This document shows, piece after piece, positions 5,468-25,858 of a stretch of DNA of 64,000 bases. The DNA comes from Motilibacter peucedani. GTDB taxonomy: Bacteria; Actinomycetota; Actinomycetes; Motilibacterales; Motilibacteraceae. Made by a program: the position numbers and the translations under genes. Under the pieces are notes generated by a model that saw only the letters and a list, made by a program, of their open reading frames with translations, made no database searches and had not been told where the DNA came from. How positions within the stretch are numbered: the stretch's first letter is position 1; every line of letters starts with the position of its first letter. The DNA lies in the NCBI RefSeq assembly GCF_003634695.1, contig NZ_RBWV01000013.1:310001-374000 (forward strand), in the 5' to 3' direction.

Positions 5468-7771
5468 ATGAGACTTCCCCGGACAGCCCTCCCCCTCGCG
5501 GGAGCGGTGGTGACAGCGCTGGCGGCGGCGACCCTCGCCTCACCAGCCACGGCGGCCTCGGCGTCCTCGACCAGGACGGCGAAGGCCACCCGCAAGGCTG
5601 CAGCAGCACGAGCAGCCCTCGACACCCGGCGCAGCGACGGCGCGCGGCTCGACAAGCTGCCGCTGGTCGAGCCCGACGGCACGCGCGTCACGGTGAGCAC
5701 AGCCGGTTCGTCGGCCAGTGCTGCTGCGCGGAGCCGGAGCGCCAAGGCCTCCGCGGTGGCCGAGGTGCCGGTCGGCACGAACCGGTCGTGGCTCGCCCTC
5801 GACGACGTCAAGGGCGTCTACTACCGCAAGAACTTCGAGCTGATGGCGGTCGGCGACCACATCGAGGTGTGGGTGGCCAAGGGCACGCAGCCCGCCGAGG
5901 ACCCCTCGACCGACACCCAGTTCCTGCCCGGGGACTGCCGCAACGACCGCACGCAGGTCACGACAGCGCAGGCGGAGTACCTCGCCGACCAGTTCGACAA
6001 CCGGATGTACCCGAAGGAGTCGGCGGCCTTCAGCGTGCCGCCCTCGCGCGACGGCTCGACCGCTCTGGTGTCCGGAGACTTCACCGGGCCCGGCGACAAG
6101 ATCGTGACGCTCGTCGACAACGTGCGAGACGACCAGTTCTACGACTTCAACAACAGCCAGGGCAACACCTACATCGCGGGCTTCTTCTCGTCGGCGCTCA
6201 ACGCCTACACCGGGCGCAACGTCATGACGATCGACGCCTACGACTGGCTGCACCGCACCGGGGCCAACCCGCCGAACGACCCGGTGCCGGGCAACCTGTG
6301 CACCAGCGCCCCGGCGCGCCCCTACCTCTACGAGGGCACGTTCGCCCACGAGTACCAGCACCTGCTCGAGAGCTACGTCGACGGCGACGAGACGAGCTGG
6401 GTCAACGAGGGCCTGTCGGACTTCGCGCAGACGCTCGTCGGCTACGTCGACGCGACCAGGCCGATCACGCAGACCGGCTTCGACAACCACGTCCAGTGCT
6501 TCCTCGGCGCCTACCGCATCCAGACGCCGGCGAACCCGACCCCGCGCGACCAGTGCGGGCCGGAGAACAGCCTGACGAACTGGCAGGACCAGGGGGCGCA
6601 GGAGATCCTCGCCGACTACGGCGCGGCCTACACCTTCATGCTGTTCCTCTATGACCGCTACGGCACCTCGTTCATGAGCGCGCTGCACAAGGACCCGCTC
6701 AACGGGCTCGCCAGCATCACCGACACCCTGAAGAAGTTCCACAAGGGCGCCGACGCGACGGACGTGCTGCACCAGTGGGCGGTCATGGTCGCCCTGGACA
6801 AGGCGCTGTCCGGGTCGAGCAGCGCCTACGGCTCGCTCAAGCGCCGCTACACCACGCCGTCGCTCGACGCGGCGGTCTCGTGGGAGTCGCCGTACGCGTA
6901 CAACACCCCGGGCGCGCCGGCCAACGGCTCCGACTACGTACGCCTGCGCGACGCCAGCGGCGCGTGGCTGCCGGCGAGCGCGGTCAAGGACATCACCTTC
7001 AGCGGCGCGAGGATGCTGGAGGCCGTGCCCGTGCAGTGGACCGTCGATACCGCCGCAGAGGGGCACGAGGGTGACGCCGCGCTCTACAGCGGGCACGACG
7101 ACAGCCAGGACCGCGCGATCATCCGCTCGGTCGACGTGCCGGCGGACAACGCCACGCTGAGCTTCGACACCAGGTGGTCGATGGAGGACGGCTACGACTT
7201 CGCCGTCGTCCAGGTCTCGACCGACGGCGGCAAGACGTTCACCTCGCTGTCCAACGCCGACACCACCTCGGAGCAGACAGACACCACGCCGGTGATCCAG
7301 GCCAACCTCCCTGGCTTCAACGGCGACAGCGGCGGCTGGCGGTCGGAGTCCTTCGACCTCTCGGCCTACGCCGGGAAGAGCGTGCTGCTCTCCTTCCGCT
7401 ACCTGACCGACTCCGGCACCAACTACGCCGGCTGGTGGGTCGACAACGTCAAGGTCGGCGGGACGCTCGTCTCCGACGGCAGCAGCCTGGCGGGTTGGCA
7501 GACGCCGACCCAGATCTCGCCGGTCCCGGTCCACGGGTTCACGGTGCAGGTCGTCGGCTACAGCTCGACCGGCGACAAGGTCGACGTGGTCGCGATGAAG
7601 CTGAAGAACGGCTTCACCGGCACGCTGCGCGGCGGGAAGATCCGGGCGCTGTTCGGGCGCACGGTCGACACGATCGCGGCCATCGTCACCTACGACGAGC
7701 CGACCGAGACCGTGACGCAGCAGGCGCGCTACAGCCTCACGGTCAACGGCGTGCTGCAGCCCGGAGGCTGA
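5468..7771 (+). CDS. Secreted zinc metalloprotease, gluzincin type, with immune inhibitor A-like C-terminal region
   Basis: A 767-residue protein starting at ATG 5468. The first about 30 residues form a signal peptide with an ATA-ASA end, followed by a basic, Ala-rich propeptide-like stretch. HEYQH begins at residue 294 and is followed by WVNEG with Glu at about 314, giving HExxH plus a downstream Glu. The C-terminal 200 residues carry a DTRWSMEDGYDFAVVQVSTDGG segment and a GWWVDNVKVGG segment typical of the jelly-roll domain after M6-type immune inhibitor A proteases. Substrate is unknown; extracellular protein degradation is likely. Its last 29 bases overlap the end of the convergent protease gene. 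Confidence 0.78.
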   Translation: MRLPRTALPLAGAVVTALAAATLASPATAASASSTRTAKATRKAAAARAALDTRRSDGARLDKLPLVEPDGTRVTVSTAGSSASAAARSRSAKASAVAEVPVGTNRSWLALDDVKGVYYRKNFELMAVGDHIEVWVAKGTQPAEDPSTDTQFLPGDCRNDRTQVTTAQAEYLADQFDNRMYPKESAAFSVPPSRDGSTALVSGDFTGPGDKIVTLVDNVRDDQFYDFNNSQGNTYIAGFFSSALNAYTGRNVMTIDAYDWLHRTGANPPNDPVPGNLCTSAPARPYLYEGTFAHEYQHLLESYVDGDETSWVNEGLSDFAQTLVGYVDATRPITQTGFDNHVQCFLGAYRIQTPANPTPRDQCGPENSLTNWQDQGAQEILADYGAAYTFMLFLYDRYGTSFMSALHKDPLNGLASITDTLKKFHKGADATDVLHQWAVMVALDKALSGSSSAYGSLKRRYTTPSLDAAVSWESPYAYNTPGAPANGSDYVRLRDASGAWLPASAVKDITFSGARMLEAVPVQWTVDTAAEGHEGDAALYSGHDDSQDRAIIRSVDVPADNATLSFDTRWSMEDGYDFAVVQVSTDGGKTFTSLSNADTTSEQTDTTPVIQANLPGFNGDSGGWRSESFDLSAYAGKSVLLSFRYLTDSGTNYAGWWVDNVKVGGTLVSDGSSLAGWQTPTQISPVPVHGFTVQVVGYSSTGDKVDVVAMKLKNGFTGTLRGGKIRALFGRTVDTIAAIVTYDEPTETVTQQARYSLTVNGVLQPGG

Positions 7772-9641
7772 TGGTGGTGGTCCGCGGGGCGCGGTCCGTG
7801 CGGACCACGACCGAGTAGTTCGTCCCGGCGCGCGGGAGGGTCAGCGAGAAGGCCCCCCGCGCGTCGGTGCGCGCGGTGGCGACCAGGCGGGTGCCGCGTA
7901 CGAGCCGCACGACCGTGCCGCGCTTGACCGGCTTGACCGTGCCGCGGACCTTGAGGCCCGAGGCGTGGACCTGGACGGTCGGGGTGACGGCGACGGTGAC
8001 GACCGAGCTGGTCGCGGCCGGCGTGCCGATGGTCACCAGGCGGTAGGCGGTGGCGGCGCTGACCGTCTGCGGGAAGCTGACGACGCCGAGCGAGCCGCTC
8101 CAGGCGGTCGCCACGCGGGCCCACGAGGACCCGACCTTGCGCTGCAGGTCGACGCGCGTACGCGGTCCGGCCGCTCCGTTGACCGTCAGCCGGCCGCTCA
8201 GCGTGACCCTGCCGCCCGCCTTCACGCTGGTCGGCGCGGCCGACAGCGAGAGGGCCGCGGTCGCCGCGGTGGGCGCCGGCGCAGTCGGGGTGGTGGGCGC
8301 GGTCGGTGCCGTCGGCGCGGGGCTCGTCGGCGCGGGGGCGGTGGTGACGGTGGTCGCGACCGTGGCGACGGCCGCACGGCCGTCCTGCTGGGTCAGGGTG
8401 GCGGTGACGGTGCCGCCGCTCGGGCAGGTCGCCCGCACGGTGGCAGCCGTCGGCGAGCTCGACTCGGTGCGCGCGTTCGCCGGCGTGCAGCCGCTGCCGC
8501 TCCAGTCGATGCGCCAGCCCTGGCCCGAGAGGACTCGCGGGGCGACCGTGACGGTGCCGCTCGCGGCGTCCCAGCTCCCGCCGCTGATCACCGGAGCGGG
8601 CGGGTCGTAGAGGAACGAGGAGTTCGCCGCGTTCCAGTTCTGCGCGAGCGCGCTGCCGGGGGCGGGGTTGGTGTTGAAGTAGTCGTCGCCGCCGCAGTCG
8701 AGCAGCTTCTCGTGGCTCGTCGGGCACGACTGGGTCATGACGACCCCGGGGCCGTCGACGTAGCACATGACGTCGGACTCGTCGGTGCAGTGGCCGGCCG
8801 CCGACACGTGCGGGGCGAAGCTCAGCACCGCGCCCAGCGTGTGGGTCAGCTCGTGCGCCTCGACGCTGTGGTCGCCGGCCGCCCAGCAGGGGGCGTCGAC
8901 CCGGGCGTACTGCGCGTAGCCGCCGTTGTTGGCGTTGGACTGCGCGGCCGTGGTGTCGGTGTAGACGTTGGCGACGCCGCACAGGACGGTCGCGTCGGTG
9001 TAGAGCAGGTACTTGCGGTCGCCGCGGTTGTAGCCCTGCGCCGCGACCGCGCTGGTCAGCGAGGCGAACGACGCGGTCGCGCTCGGCGCGACGACGGCGT
9101 GGGCGACCGAGAGCTGGCAGCTGGCGTCGTGGACCCAGCGGATCTGGCGGCGCCCACCGTGCTCGGCGGCGCTGGCCAGGAAGACCGCGTCGACGCCGGC
9201 GGCGTACTGCCGCAGCGAGCCGACGACCGAGTCGTAGCGGTCGGCGCGGTCGCTCGCCACCACGTACACCGCCTGCACCCGGTTGCCGCTCACGCCGTCG
9301 TCGGAGCAGCCCGTGCTGATGCGGCTGCCGATTCCGGTGGTCGCGCCCGGGTCCGGCACCTCGTCGGCCGCGACCAGGAGGGCGTCGGTGCTGACCTGGT
9401 CGTGCACGTCGACGCCGGCGGGAGCCTCGTCGCCCTCGTAGCCCTCGGCGTTGCGCCCGTGCGCCTCGACGTCGCGCACGACCTGCACGGCCGCGTCGGT
9501 GCCGGCCCGCAGCGCGGCGTAGGACCCGGTGCCGTCCGCTGCCGCCGCTCCGGGCAGCCCGGAGACCGCCACGACGAGCGCAGCCACCCCCGCGACGCCG
9601 GTGACTGCGGTGGTGGCCAGACGGCGCAGGGGAGTGCTCAC
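7743..9641 (-). CDS. Secreted metzincin-like metalloprotease with Pro/Thr linker and Ig-like C-terminal domains
   Basis: A 632-residue protein. GTG 9641 is the start that gives a clean signal peptide ([23 protein letters not shown], then AAAAD). HELTHTLGAV starts near residue 263 and is followed by PHVSAAGHC and by SDVMCY, which has the look of a metzincin Met-turn. The canonical third ligand position (HExxHxxGxxH) is not His; the His in GHC may replace it. Several cysteines suggest disulfides. A Pro/Ala/Thr-rich linker leads to two beta-rich repeats ending in GAFSLTLPRAGTNYSVVV. Peptidase class is inferred from motifs only. Its 3' end overlaps the convergent protease gene by 29 bases. Confidence 0.75.
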   Translation of the reverse strand: MSTPLRRLATTAVTGVAGVAALVVAVSGLPGAAAADGTGSYAALRAGTDAAVQVVRDVEAHGRNAEGYEGDEAPAGVDVHDQVSTDALLVAADEVPDPGATTGIGSRISTGCSDDGVSGNRVQAVYVVASDRADRYDSVVGSLRQYAAGVDAVFLASAAEHGGRRQIRWVHDASCQLSVAHAVVAPSATASFASLTSAVAAQGYNRGDRKYLLYTDATVLCGVANVYTDTTAAQSNANNGGYAQYARVDAPCWAAGDHSVEAHELTHTLGAVLSFAPHVSAAGHCTDESDVMCYVDGPGVVMTQSCPTSHEKLLDCGGDDYFNTNPAPGSALAQNWNAANSSFLYDPPAPVISGGSWDAASGTVTVAPRVLSGQGWRIDWSGSGCTPANARTESSSPTAATVRATCPSGGTVTATLTQQDGRAAVATVATTVTTAPAPTSPAPTAPTAPTTPTAPAPTAATAALSLSAAPTSVKAGGRVTLSGRLTVNGAAGPRTRVDLQRKVGSSWARVATAWSGSLGVVSFPQTVSAATAYRLVTIGTPAATSSVVTVAVTPTVQVHASGLKVRGTVKPVKRGTVVRLVRGTRLVATARTDARGAFSLTLPRAGTNYSVVVRTDRAPRTTTISLRAAARR

Positions 9642-9717
9642 GAGTAGAGGTGTCGGCGCGTGCTTCGTCCGTTTTGTAGGGCCAAACCGGTGAACCTCGC
9701 CCCGGGCCCGCGATGTT

Positions 9718-10155
9718 GATCGGCCAGGGCGATCAACCTCGTGCGAGGCCCATGCAAGTCGGTCGGCCTGGCACGAGGTTGGTGGGCCCGGCCCGGCCGG
9801 ACGTTGATCACGTACGTTGATCAACGTCGCACCAGCCGCAGCAACGCACGTACGGCTGGTGCCCCTTTGCTACGGCTCGTCCGCCGGGCGATCGTGATCG
9901 GCCAGGGCGATCAACCTCGTGCGAGGCCCATGCAATTCGATCGGCCTGGCACGAGGTTGGTGGGCCCGGCTCGGCCGGACGTTGATCACGTACGTTGATC
10001 AACGTCGCACCAGCCGCAACAACGCACGTACGGCTGGTGCCCCATTGCTGCGGCTCGTCCGCCGGGCGATCGTGATCGGCCAGGGCGATCAACCTCGTGC
10101 GAGGCCCATGCACGTTGCTCGGCCTGGCACGAGCTCGGTAGGCCTGGCTCGGGTG
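9718..10155. repeat. Tandem 178-bp repeat (about 2.5 copies) with nested palindromes
   Basis: Copies start at 9718, 9896 and 10074, exactly 178 bases apart. The first two differ at about six positions by eye; the third decays after about 80 bases. Each full unit holds three dyads: GTTGATCG/CGATCAAC around a 7-base spacer at the unit start, AACCTCGTGC paired with GCACGAGGTT, and GCACCAGCCG paired with CGGCTGGTGC. There is also a perfect 12-base palindrome CGTTGATCAACG. Open frames through the repeat look like chance frames without coding character. The stretch fills the gap between the metzincin start and ssrA. A related element lies inverted at 25766-25858. Confidence 0.93.
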
Positions 10156-10244
10156 GGCCCCGAGCGTGCGCCCAGGGGTACGCCGGTGGCTCGCCGTCCG
10201 CGCACGGCCTCGTACGTCTGTGGCCGGCTCCCGAGGCGCCGCAC

Positions 10245-10274
10245 CTGACGCGCGCACGCCGCACCGGGTAGACT
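10245..10274 (+). promoter_or_regulatory. Likely ssrA promoter
   Basis: CTGACG at 10245-10250 and TAGACT at 10269-10274 are separated by 18 bases. This resembles an actinobacterial primary-sigma promoter. Transcription would start near 10281, leaving a short 5' leader to be trimmed to the mature tmRNA end at 10298. Confidence 0.6.
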
Positions 10275-10297
10275 CGACTCCGCGCAACAACTGCACA

Positions 10298-10676
10298 GGG
10301 GGTGACTGGTCTCGACTTCGTTCGTCGAGTCAGGGGAAGCGGGTCGAGGACGCTGGGATGATCTCGTTAACCATGCCTAGCAACCAATAGGTGCCAATAC
10401 AAACAGCACCCAGGCTCAGCTCTCTCTCGCTGCCTAAGCAGAGAAGCTGACCTTGCAAGCCCGGAGATGCTCCCGCTCCGGATCCTTGCATCATCCAGGG
10501 AGCTCTACCGTCAAGCCCGGTCACGGGGTCTGACGGGACACTGAACAGTGGCTGGGCCCGTCAGCAGGTGTGCTCGTGCACCGGCTGGGGCCGAGAAAAT
10601 CGCTTCACGAGATGCACCCGGAGAAGCCCTGGCACCACGGCGAAGGACCCGGGTTCGATTCCCGGCACCTCCACCG
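10298..10676 (+). ncRNA. ssrA: Transfer-messenger RNA (tmRNA)
   Basis: The 5' end GGGGGTGACTGGTCTCGAC and the 3' end GGGTTCGATTCCCGGCACCTCC form the tRNA-like domain: GGGGGTG pairs with CACCTCC (one G-U), and a standard T arm with GTTCGATTC is present. The mRNA-like part contains a tag frame starting with GCC at 10393 and ending at TAA 10435-10437. The base triplet after the discriminator is CCG, so the 3' CCA is not encoded and would have to be added after processing. The RNA works with SmpB (2161-2646) to rescue stalled ribosomes. The segment is clearly richer in A/T than its surroundings. Confidence 0.95.
10393..10437 (+). other. tmRNA proteolysis-tag reading frame
   Basis: Resume codon GCC at 10393 followed by 13 codons and TAA gives the tag ANTNSTQAQLSLAA. 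The ANT start and LAA end match the actinobacterial pattern. The tag ends SLAA rather than the usual ALAA, and it lacks the charged residues often seen in the middle (for example KRD/KRT). Confidence 0.85.
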
Positions 10677-10688
10677 AGCAGCACCACC

Positions 10689-10725
10689 ACGAAGGCCCGT
10701 CCCCGACCAGGGGGCGGGCCTTCGT
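10689..10725 (+). terminator. Hairpin terminator after ssrA
   Basis: ACGAAGGCCCG and CGGGCCTTCGT form an 11-bp stem, extended inward by CCCC/GGGG with one bulged T. It starts 12 bases after the tmRNA end and is followed by GCGTTG rather than a long T-run, as is common in GC-rich actinobacteria. It separates ssrA from the copper operon. Confidence 0.75.
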
Positions 10726-10750
10726 GCGTTGAGGCTGCCCTTGCCAGGCA

Positions 10751-10765
10751 TACCCCCCGGGGGTA
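10751..10765 (+). promoter_or_regulatory. CsoR copper operator
   Basis: TACCCCCCGGGGGTA is a near-perfect palindrome matching the G/C-tract operators bound by CsoR repressors. It lies 11 bases before the chosen csoR start, so CsoR most likely autoregulates the csoR-copZ-copA operon and releases it when Cu(I) binds. Confidence 0.85.
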
Positions 10766-10776
10766 ACGTGGACCAC

Positions 10777-11070
10777 GTGAGCGACACGACCCCGGGCTAC
10801 GCCGGCTCCAAGGACGCGCACCTCAAGCGCCTCAGACGCATCGAGGGGCAGGTGCGCGGGCTGCAGCGCCAGGTCGAGTCCGACACCTACTGCATCGACG
10901 TGCTGACCCAGGTCAGCGCCGCGACCAAGGCGCTCGAGGCGTTCGCGCTGGCGCTGCTCGACGAGCACCTGCACCACTGCGTCACCGACGCGATCACCAA
11001 GGGCGGCGCCGAGGCGGAGCTCAAGGTCCAGGAGGCCTCCGCCGCCATCGCGCGCCTCGTCCGGTCCTGA
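10777..11070 (+). CDS. csoR: Copper-sensing transcriptional repressor CsoR
   Basis: A 97-residue all-helical DUF156-type protein. It has the family core HLKRLRRIEGQVRGLQRQVE and the Cu(I) ligand set: Cys in SDTYCIDVL, and His and Cys in EHLHHCV. CsoR tetramers bind their operator without copper and leave it when Cu(I) binds. GTG 10777 is chosen; an in-frame GTG at 10768 is an alternative, and both sit just after the operator, so the mRNA leader must be very short. First gene of a three-gene copper operon. Confidence 0.92.
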   Translation: MSDTTPGYAGSKDAHLKRLRRIEGQVRGLQRQVESDTYCIDVLTQVSAATKALEAFALALLDEHLHHCVTDAITKGGAEAELKVQEASAAIARLVRS

Positions 11071-23350: not shown

Positions 23351-25761
23351 CCGGCACCCGTCCGCGCGACGACGGGGGCGGTAGCGTGGCGCAGGTGACT
23401 CTGCCCTGGGGGTCACCGGAGCTCCTGTCGGTGGTGCTTGACGCGGTCCCGGTGGCGACGGTCGTGCTCGACGCCGACGCGGGCATCGTGGCGTGCAACG
23501 GGCTGGCCGAGCAGCTGCTCCGGCTGCCGCCGGCCTGGCAGGGCCGCAGCATCCTGGCCGACCAGGACGCCGAGCTCGTAAGCGAGGTCGCCCGCCTGCT
23601 CGGCGGCGAGCCGGTCGCCCGCGAGACGCGCGTGCGCCTCGGTGACGGCTCGTGGCGCTCGCTGTCGTGGAAGGGCACGCCCCTGACCGACGGCGAGGGC
23701 GGGCCGCTCGGAGCGGTCGCGGTGATCGAGGACACCTCGCGCCGTCAGGCCGCCCGGCGCGACACCGCCCTGCTCGACGCGCTGTTCCGCGAGGCGCCCG
23801 TGGGGCTGGCGGTCTACGACCAGGCCGGGCACTACACCCGCGTCAACCGCGCGCTCGAGGCGATGGACGGGCTCAGCGACTCCGAGCACCGCGGCCACCG
23901 CAGCGCCGAGCTGCTGCCCGGCCTGCGCAGCGACGTCGACCGCGTGGTCGCTCGGGTCTTCGAGACCGGCGAGCCGGCTCCCGACATCGAGGTCCGCGGC
24001 ACGACGCCCGCGGCGGAGGCGCAGCGTACGTGGCTGCACTCGTTCTTCCGCCTCGAGCACGGCGGGCAGCCCGTGGGCGTCGGCGCCGTCGTCCGCGACG
24101 TCACCGACCAGCGGCAGGCCGAGCTCGACCGGGCGTCCGCCGCCCAGCGGCTCGCCTTCATCGGCGAGGCCGGCGAGAAGCTGGCGAGCACCCTCGAGCC
24201 GGACGCGGTGCTCGACCTGCTCTGCCGGCTCGCCGTGCCGGCGCTCGCCGACCACGTCATGGTCGACGTCGTCGACGACACCGGGCGGCTGCGCCGGCGC
24301 GCGGCGCGGCACGCAGGCACGCCGCGCTTCGGGCACGTGGTGCCGCGCACCGTGGGAGAGCCGGCCGACTACCCGGCGGGCCACCCGGCCCGGCGCGCGG
24401 TCGAGCAGGGCCAGGCGCTGCTGGTGCGCGACGCCGAGCCCGACAGCGCGACGTTCCCCCACGTACCCGGCCTGCGCAGCGTGCTCGTGCTGCCGATGAG
24501 CGTCGGCGGCCAGGTCATCGGCGTGAGCACGCTGCTGTTCGCGGGCAGCGGGCGGACCTACGGCGACGCCGAGGCGGCGCTCGCGCGCGACCTCGTCAGC
24601 CGCGCCGCGGTGGCGATGGCCAACGCGCTGTCCTACGAGCAGCAGCGCTCGGCGGCAGTGGCGCTCCAGCGCAGCCTGCTGCCCGAGGGGCTCGGCGACG
24701 TCGAGGGGCTGCAGGTCGCGTGGCGCTACCTGCCGGGCGCGAAGGGCACCAAGGTCGGCGGCGACTGGGCCGACGTCTTCCCGCTGCCGAGCGGGCGCAC
24801 CGCGATCGTCGTCGGCGACGTCATGGGCCGGGGGTTGCGTGCCGCCGCCGTCATGGGGCAGGTGCGCACGGCCGTACGCGTGCTGGCCTACCAGGACCCG
24901 CCGCCCTCCGAGGTGCTGCGCTCGCTCGACCTCGCGGTCTCGGGGCTGGCCGACGGGCAGCTCGTGACCTGCGTCTACGCGGTCTTCGACCCGGCGCGCG
25001 AGGTGCTGACCGTGGCGAGCGCCGGGCACGTGCCGCCGGTGATGGTCGGGCCCGACGGCAAGGCGCGCGTGCTCTCCGTCGACGGCGGACTGCCGGTCGG
25101 GGTGCCGCTGGGCGTGCGGGCCGACCTCGGCTACGAGGAGGTCGAGATCGCCATGCCGCACGGCAGCGGTCTCGCGCTCTACACCGACGGGCTGGTCGAG
25201 GCGCCCGGGCGCGACGTGGACGCCGGCATCGCCGGGCTCGTCGACGCGCTCGAGACCCACTCGTGGGACGACCTGGAGAAGCTCTGCGACCTCGCGGTGG
25301 CCGCGGGCGTCCCGCACGCGCCGGGCCACCCCGACGACGTGGCGCTGCTGCTGGTCCGCGCCGCGAGCGACGCGGCCGGGCACGTCATGACGGTGGACCT
25401 GCCGCCCGACCCGGCCGCCGTCAGCCCGGCGCGGGCGCTGTTCGTGTCGGCGCTGGAGCGGTGGGGACTGGCCGGCGACCCGGTCGCCCTGGCCGGCCAG
25501 CTGCTGGTGAGCGAGGTCGTCACCAACGCGATCCGCTACGCCCGCGGCGACGTCGGGCTGCTGGTCCGGCGGGCCGAGCGGGCCGTGCACGTCGAGGTCC
25601 GCGACCACGACACCCGGCTGCCCCGGCTGCGCCACGCGACGCTCGACGACGAGGGCGGCCGCGGCCTCGCCCTCGTGCAGGCCCTCTCCCGCGACTGGGG
25701 CGCCCGCCCCCTCCCCGACGGCAAGGTCGTCTGGTTCACGCTGGACGCTCCCGGACGCTGA
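23347..25761 (+). CDS. PAS-PAS-GAF-PP2C phosphatase with C-terminal histidine-kinase-like ATPase
   Basis: An 804-residue signalling protein. Order: PAS (about 15-130), second PAS (about 135-260; AVYDQAGHYTRVNRALEAM), GAF (about 265-435), SpoIIE-type PP2C (about 450-665; GGDWAD, GDVMGRG, YTDGLVE, HPDDVAL) and an ATPase domain (about 680-804; SEVVTNAIRYA, GGRGLALVQALSRDWG). It likely senses a ligand or light/redox cue and acts on a sigma-factor partner-switching module. The start is uncertain: GTG 23347 overlaps the previous stop, while GTG 23386 and 23395 are in-frame alternatives closer to the first PAS. A paralogous architecture is at 15355-17373. Confidence 0.88.
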   Translation: MTGTRPRDDGGGSVAQVTLPWGSPELLSVVLDAVPVATVVLDADAGIVACNGLAEQLLRLPPAWQGRSILADQDAELVSEVARLLGGEPVARETRVRLGDGSWRSLSWKGTPLTDGEGGPLGAVAVIEDTSRRQAARRDTALLDALFREAPVGLAVYDQAGHYTRVNRALEAMDGLSDSEHRGHRSAELLPGLRSDVDRVVARVFETGEPAPDIEVRGTTPAAEAQRTWLHSFFRLEHGGQPVGVGAVVRDVTDQRQAELDRASAAQRLAFIGEAGEKLASTLEPDAVLDLLCRLAVPALADHVMVDVVDDTGRLRRRAARHAGTPRFGHVVPRTVGEPADYPAGHPARRAVEQGQALLVRDAEPDSATFPHVPGLRSVLVLPMSVGGQVIGVSTLLFAGSGRTYGDAEAALARDLVSRAAVAMANALSYEQQRSAAVALQRSLLPEGLGDVEGLQVAWRYLPGAKGTKVGGDWADVFPLPSGRTAIVVGDVMGRGLRAAAVMGQVRTAVRVLAYQDPPPSEVLRSLDLAVSGLADGQLVTCVYAVFDPAREVLTVASAGHVPPVMVGPDGKARVLSVDGGLPVGVPLGVRADLGYEEVEIAMPHGSGLALYTDGLVEAPGRDVDAGIAGLVDALETHSWDDLEKLCDLAVAAGVPHAPGHPDDVALLLVRAASDAAGHVMTVDLPPDPAAVSPARALFVSALERWGLAGDPVALAGQLLVSEVVTNAIRYARGDVGLLVRRAERAVHVEVRDHDTRLPRLRHATLDDEGGRGLALVQALSRDWGARPLPDGKVVWFTLDAPGR

Positions 25762-25765
25762 CGCC

Positions 25766-25858
25766 GATGTTGATCGGCTAGGCCGATCAAACTCGTGCCA
25801 GGCCGAGCAACTTGCATGGGTCTCGCACGAGGTTGATCGGCTAGGGCGATCAACGTCG
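25766..25858. repeat. Dispersed copy of the 9.7-kb palindromic repeat, inverted
   Basis: Read on the minus strand, this 93-base stretch matches the first part of the 178-bp unit at 9718, with its closest partner being the third, decayed copy near 10074-10140. It contains TTGATCGGC-TAG-GCCGATCAA (perfect 9-bp arms), CTCGTGC paired with GCACGAG, and GTTGATCG/CGATCAAC. It fills the gap between two convergent genes, starting 5 bases after the PP2C stop. The TGA of the minus-strand gene (25850-25852) lies inside it. Confidence 0.88.

Follow-up and report, generated by a model that had tools for sequence, protein, structure and literature searches.

A genus-restricted palindromic repeat of Motilibacter peucedani, probably REP/BIME-like, in tandem array upstream of ssrA

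Upstream of the ssrA gene of Motilibacter peucedani lies a tandem repeat of about 178 bp that is built of palindromes, which raises the question of whether it is a structured RNA tied to ssrA, a set of protein-binding sites or the local copy of a mobile repeat family. The locus belongs to a 64,000-nucleotide stretch that we analysed as a whole (hereafter the window, C13:310001-374000) and that comes from a 4.19 Mb genome assembly of 17 contigs. Its ~73% GC and the presence of a Pup ligase agree with an actinobacterium. For comparison within the genus we used one congener genome (G001), and relatives were sampled as 400-kb stretches.

The tandem array and its composition

TRF reported an array of period 178 with 2.5 copies at 9710-10152, whose score of 781 was by far the highest in the window, and a repeat search placed three in-register copies at intervals of 178 bp, which were 100%, 96% and 60% identical (the last over 10066-10243). 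The tandem 178-bp repeat claimed in the original prediction is therefore real, its limits moving by only a few bases from 9718-10155, and the near identity of its first two copies holds at 96%. The third copy had been described as decayed; its BLASTN match is confined to the first 87 nt, indicating that the 60% identity reflects truncation rather than even decay. An inverted-repeat search also confirmed that each 178-bp unit contains several dyads. Chance is excluded as the origin of the array, since GTTGATCACGTACGTTGATCAAC and GGCCAGGGCGATCAACCTCGTGC, scanned in the window with up to three mismatches, were expected 0.00 times and found two and five times, respectively. Two extra matches of GGCCAGGGCGATCAACCTCGTGC, at 25776 and 25839, revealed a second copy of the family within the window (Table 1).

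Each full unit of the array joins two half elements, A′ and B′, which can be understood from complete copies elsewhere. A complete element measures 84 bp and consists of a 21-bp dyad (TTGATC-N9-GATCAA), a 42-nt inner hairpin and a second 21-bp dyad, so that the layout is 21-42-21, and the arm starts are exactly 63 bp apart in complete copies of both the A and the B type. The inner hairpin of the A type is CCTCGTGC...GCACGAGG, and the inner sequence of the B type, AGGGCACCAGCCG...CGGCTGGTGCCCT, is quite unlike it. In the array both halves have lost the second dyad, A′ ending on the right in a TTSGTRGGCC-like sequence and B′ in TTGCT. A mosaic of A′ and B occurs at two independent loci, C12:130982 and the array itself. 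The flanking 5 bp, CGAYG and CRTCG, extend the outer arms as terminal inverted repeats, giving an element of ~94 bp; the CGTC letters at one element end pair with the CGAYG of the opposite end, and the self-stem has 9 bp and a 3-nt loop. The aligned copies displayed neither a conserved GTAG at their ends nor a CCA tail.

Table 1. Features of the ssrA region and of the second family copy in the window (positions count from the first letter of the window)
Feature	Position	Strand	Basis or remark
Divergent gene, 632 aa, secreted by its N-terminus, no Pfam match	7743..9641	-	adjoins ssrA in the congener too
Tandem unit 1 (A′ then B′)	9710..9887	+	repeat search, TRF, BLASTN
A′ 21-bp dyad TTGATC-N9-GATCAA, unit 1	9716..9736	.	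pattern scan
A′ dyad equivalents, first base G	9894-9914, 10072-10092	.	pattern scan
A′ 42-nt inner hairpin CCTCGTGC...GCACGAGG, unit 1	9737..9778	+	equivalents 9915-9956, 10093-10134
A′ alternative right end, consensus ~TTCGTRGGCCTSGC, replacing the second dyad	9779..9792	+	copy alignment
B′ 21-bp dyad TTGATCACGTACGTTGATCAA, unit 1	9804..9824	.	pattern scan; equivalent 9982-10002
B′ 42-nt inner hairpin CACCAGCCG...CGGCTGGTG, with terminal short T-run CCCCTTTGCT, unit 1	9825..9866	+	equivalent 10003-10044
Tandem unit 2, 96% identical to unit 1	9888..10065	+	repeat search, BLASTN
Tandem unit 3, truncated, A′ alone, 89% identity over 87 nt	10066..10152	+	TRF, BLASTN
ssrA (tmRNA), downstream neighbour of the array, outside the repeat family	10298..10675 (Rfam match to 10676)	+	Rfam
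Complete 84-bp A element in a convergent gap	25770..25853 (C13:335770)	+	dyads at 25770 and 25833, 63 bp apart

Genomic placement and distribution in relatives

The unit is not confined to the array, as genome-wide BLASTN detected it at 17 dispersed loci, including one lone B-type dyad at C11:186688. Sixteen of the 17 are intergenic (11 convergent, three co-directional and two divergent), gene orientation being taken from a home-made codon-usage gene caller trained on the source genome. The 11 of 16 in convergent gaps compare with 15.6% of background gaps (binomial p ~3e-6), and p falls to ~1e-8 against background gaps no shorter than 84 bp. In a typical convergent gap, 9-23 bp separate the left stop codon from the start of the dyad and 8-19 bp separate its end from the right stop codon; at two convergent sites, C13:335770 and C17:49081, a stop codon is part of the dyad itself. 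The first of these sites is the element at 25770-25853. It fills the space that separates a SpoIIE-type phosphatase gene, which stops at 25761, from a convergent, minus-strand Pyr_excise-domain gene, whose stop codon at 25850 falls within the element. At the co-directional sites C12:130982, C12:196964 and C17:50160, the A′ halves read dyad, hairpin and end along the upstream gene, and the convergent A′ at C17:49081 likewise follows its left gene. These few cases fit a division into putative one-way (A′ half) and two-way (complete) terminators. The two copies at divergent sites are the array and C13:6806. The flanking genes examined were of housekeeping types.

A 299-aa gene, whose AbiEi antitoxin-type domains score at the Pfam cut-off, is enclosed by two inverted A′ copies at C17:49081-50243. 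It has pafA on one side and a conserved gene on the other, and could have been carried in by the pair of repeats. A DUF559 search for AbiEi/DUF559 genes accompanying the repeats gave one marginal match, located elsewhere.

In the class-wide scan of 394 genomes the exact pattern TTGATC-N9-GATCAA was genus-restricted, with 23 dyads here, 26 in the congener and 0-3 in the 392 others; other genera of the same family had none by this exact-pattern scan. When 85k species genomes were scanned by pattern, 22 scattered single matches came up in unrelated phyla, which we took as chance. TTGATC-Nk-GATCAA is present solely at k = 9, both when k = 4-16 was searched throughout this genome and when k = 0-30 was searched in 400-kb samples of the two species. 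BLASTN with the unit found no copy in the congener or in three other family genomes, and the link to the congener emerged through the dyad pattern. The dyad cores there are unrelated to those here and are mostly GGGGNCCCC or GGGCWGCCC, palindromic themselves. One congener element has the 63-bp arm spacing and the 21-42-21 layout and could be aligned gap-free to A and B copies, having mainly the dyad feet in common with them; other dyad pairs of the congener are 43 or 83 bp apart. Within the genus, therefore, the foot and the layout are old and conserved, and the cores are not.

Other palindromes are dispersed in these genomes as well. The source genome carries a further family, TTGGCACGATGTGACTCCTTGCC...GGCAAGAAGTCACATCGTGCCAA, with a near-perfect stem of up to 27 bp and three copies in 400 kb (C10:18235, 42836 and 343217). 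The congener's own palindrome families are denser than the ~17 loci described here; its stretch C3:250001-650000 holds, among others, GTGATCATGCACGTCCTGGG clusters (48 matches in 14 clusters) and GAACGGGGGCACCCAGT hairpins. In the genome G004, GATCATGCAGC hairpin clusters resemble the GTGATCATGCA family of the congener across genera, and none were seen in the 400-kb sample of the source genome.

Insertion, folding and competing explanations

Comparison with the congener revealed copies that are extra here. The complete A copy at C9:435106-435189 lies in frame inside an OleBC-like fusion gene joining an alpha/beta-hydrolase to an AMP-ligase (Pfam Abhydrolase_1 and AMP-binding), where it encodes the linker. 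Between the matched parts of this protein lie 84 bp of query here vs 12 bp in the congener and 21 bp in a family relative (G002), and the protein has a net 24 extra residues over the congener ortholog. The divergent gene beside the array has a counterpart of 69% identity next to ssrA in the congener, where the gap between the two genes is ~245 bp vs 656 bp here. The in-frame copy missing from the congener ortholog, together with the congener ssrA gap that holds no array, shows that the elements insert. The convergent gaps at murA and at an aminotransferase gene measure 118 and 119 bp here and 3 and 19 bp in the congener, in which neither gap contains a long hairpin. The pyrophosphatase gap of the congener holds an unrelated double palindrome of its own, belonging to a dispersed family found only in that genome. 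By eye, no target-site duplication was seen in the copy flanks or at the empty sites.

The original prediction had offered a REP/BIME-like mobile family as one reading and a RAYT-type transposase in the same genome as its corollary. Dispersal, the A/B mosaics, the position after stop codons and insertion all favour the reading. The corollary failed: the source genome, to which this search was applied, gave zero matches to Y1_Tnp (PF01797), although it is rated 100% complete and the positive controls were detected. We therefore consider the family to be probably a REP/BIME-like mobile palindrome without RAYT, kept mostly as putative bidirectional terminators, and the array to be, on the same reading, a local tandem amplification of a composite A′+B′ from this genus-specific family. 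A counterpoint is that the array and C13:6806 lie between divergent genes and have no obvious terminator job.

Folding of the copies was compared with that of shuffled sequences, giving z values of -7.7 to -12.4 for complete copies and ~-4 for the array halves. The conserved arms had been proposed to reflect retained structure, for which covariation would speak. Within the A family, aligned in consistent orientation, we found no covariation, 498 of 500 shuffles scoring at least as high, which means that selection need not act on the structure once a copy has inserted. The proposal fared better across the A type, the B type and the congener element, where both partners differ in 23 of 40 pairs and none of 500 shuffles reached the score, a comparison of only three independent palindromes. 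The original prediction was to fall if neither a second locus nor covariation turned up, and the 17 loci keep it standing. Palindromicity is thus kept across family replacement, not demonstrably through selection on single copies.

In each of the four genomes sampled, strong hairpins, whatever their sequence, reach their highest density in convergent gaps, at ~0.9-2.2 per kb vs 0-0.1 in divergent gaps. This concentration argues that convergent gaps favour two-way terminators, a niche that the repeat family exploits or fills. Against termination by the array, no canonical U-tract terminator was found in 9600-10800, where B′ has only CCCCTTTGCT, although weak U-tracts are common among GC-rich actinobacteria. 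A stable hairpin shortly past a stop codon is what the family copies present, but not the array, which lies between divergent genes.

The same placement would be expected if the repeats were primarily bidirectional terminators, copied from one such terminator to a similar one by gene conversion or recombination, with no mobility mechanism of their own. Their siting in convergent gaps and their distances to the stops agree with this, as do other, non-repeated strong hairpins that occupy the same niche here and in three relatives. We nevertheless judge it unlikely, because the copy inside the oleBC-like reading frame and the divergent array have no termination role, the copy flanks show no obvious homology to template conversion, and the congener's murA and aminotransferase gaps offer no long hairpin to convert. 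Less probable again is that the elements are MITEs, non-autonomous relics of an insertion sequence, with the outer arms as terminal inverted repeats and a DDE-type transposase as the mover. The ~94-bp CGAYG-TTGATC...GATCAA-CRTCG structure, insertion relative to the congener and the inverted A′ pair around the 299-aa AbiEi-like gene would suit such an origin; against it, no copy has a target-site duplication discernible by eye, all exact dyads of the genome lie in short elements and nothing longer with these ends was found, and nested dyads with cores that change freely between species do not fit insertion-sequence ends.

We give slightly less weight still to the 21-bp dyads being operators bound by a protein dimer, for instance of a nucleoid protein, with the 63-bp pairs (six helical turns) serving bridging or looping. 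The invariant half-sites TTGATC/GATCAA around a variable core at a fixed 9-bp spacing, and the 63-bp phasing in three different sequence types, are what operators could look like, but the congener pairs at 43 and 83 bp are merely rough helical multiples, the varying cores stay palindromic or arm-complementary, which is needless for operator binding alone, and a site just past stop codons is unusual for operators. Finally, a structured regulatory RNA acting on ssrA, for which the position 146 bp upstream and the good folding could speak, is very improbable: at the gathering score Rfam matched tmRNA alone and no family for the array, a promoter-like TAGACT stands between array and ssrA, the congener ssrA has no array, and the 16 other loci are away from ssrA, so we rejected both an ssrA-specific RNA and Rfam membership, leaving the special RNA function once suggested here without support.

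Returning to the mobile palindrome that we favour, spread may depend on recognition of the folded dyad foot TTGATC/GATCAA, and not of the core, by an enzyme or by a replication/repair process. A transcript through a symmetric copy would fold into one long stem, with as many as 40 pairs, and end transcription from both sides, and the half copies A′ and B′, with one dyad replaced, would act in one direction. Copies would persist mostly at sites where a terminator does no harm or is of use, and those at divergent sites, including the ssrA array, may be tolerated by-products.

Relation to known repeats and significance

The closest known kind is the REPs, and especially the CGTC-tagged REPs (Di Nocera et al. 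2013, PMC3733652), yet neither the CGTC nor the GTAG hallmarks are found here. CGTC REPs are short palindromes near gene 3′ ends, often in inverted dimers, that lie between convergent genes within less than 20 bp of both stops and sometimes in frame inside ORFs; they have no dedicated transposase and occur mostly in alpha-Proteobacteria, and the word actinobacteria does not appear in that paper (PMC3733652). Each carries an unpaired CGTC, TGTC or CCTC tag at one end, a stem of 8-9 bp, a loop of 4-5 nt and a CCA tail (PMC3733652). The present family resembles them in its siting at 3′ ends and convergent stops, its in-frame copy, its inverted dimers and the lack of a dedicated transposase, but differs in the TTGATC/GATCAA foot, the mutually paired CGAYG/CRTCG flanks and the full 21-42-21 unit. 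With the RAYT-associated BIMEs and REPINs of E. coli and Pseudomonas (PMC3116915, PMC2817692) it shares a mosaic of palindromic units, inverted pairs, extragenic location and species-specific populations, whereas it has no GTAG foot, no Y1/RAYT gene was found, and its ~17 loci contrast with the usual >100 copies of REP/BIME. Rickettsia palindromic elements also insert in frame into protein genes, as the copy in the oleBC-like linker does, but their sequence differs and a single intragenic copy was found here. Bidirectional intrinsic terminators of GC-rich bacteria similarly fill convergent gaps with a strong hairpin and no clear U-tract; ordinary ones are mostly unique sequences, in contrast to the near-identical dispersed copies of fixed geometry seen here. 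A literature search of open-access papers found no description of a TTGATC-N9-GATCAA family.

Most work on REP-like repeats concerns those of Proteobacteria, with GTAG feet and RAYT transposases, and this family comes from a GC-rich actinobacterial genus. It is possible, though we advance this only tentatively, that it represents a RAYT-independent class of mobile palindrome in one actinobacterial genus, whose enzyme reads only the folded TTGATC-N9-GATCAA foot in a fixed geometry and whose cores are replaceable wholesale. If recognition is indeed by the foot alone, sister species would carry unrelated-looking populations of ready-made bidirectional terminators. Because the foot and the geometry (21-42-21, 63 bp) are kept in two species with wholly different cores, the recognition target of the mover becomes testable. 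The family likewise makes testable the idea of terminators as a mobile commodity where U-tract terminators are few, and the rate at which such populations turn over.
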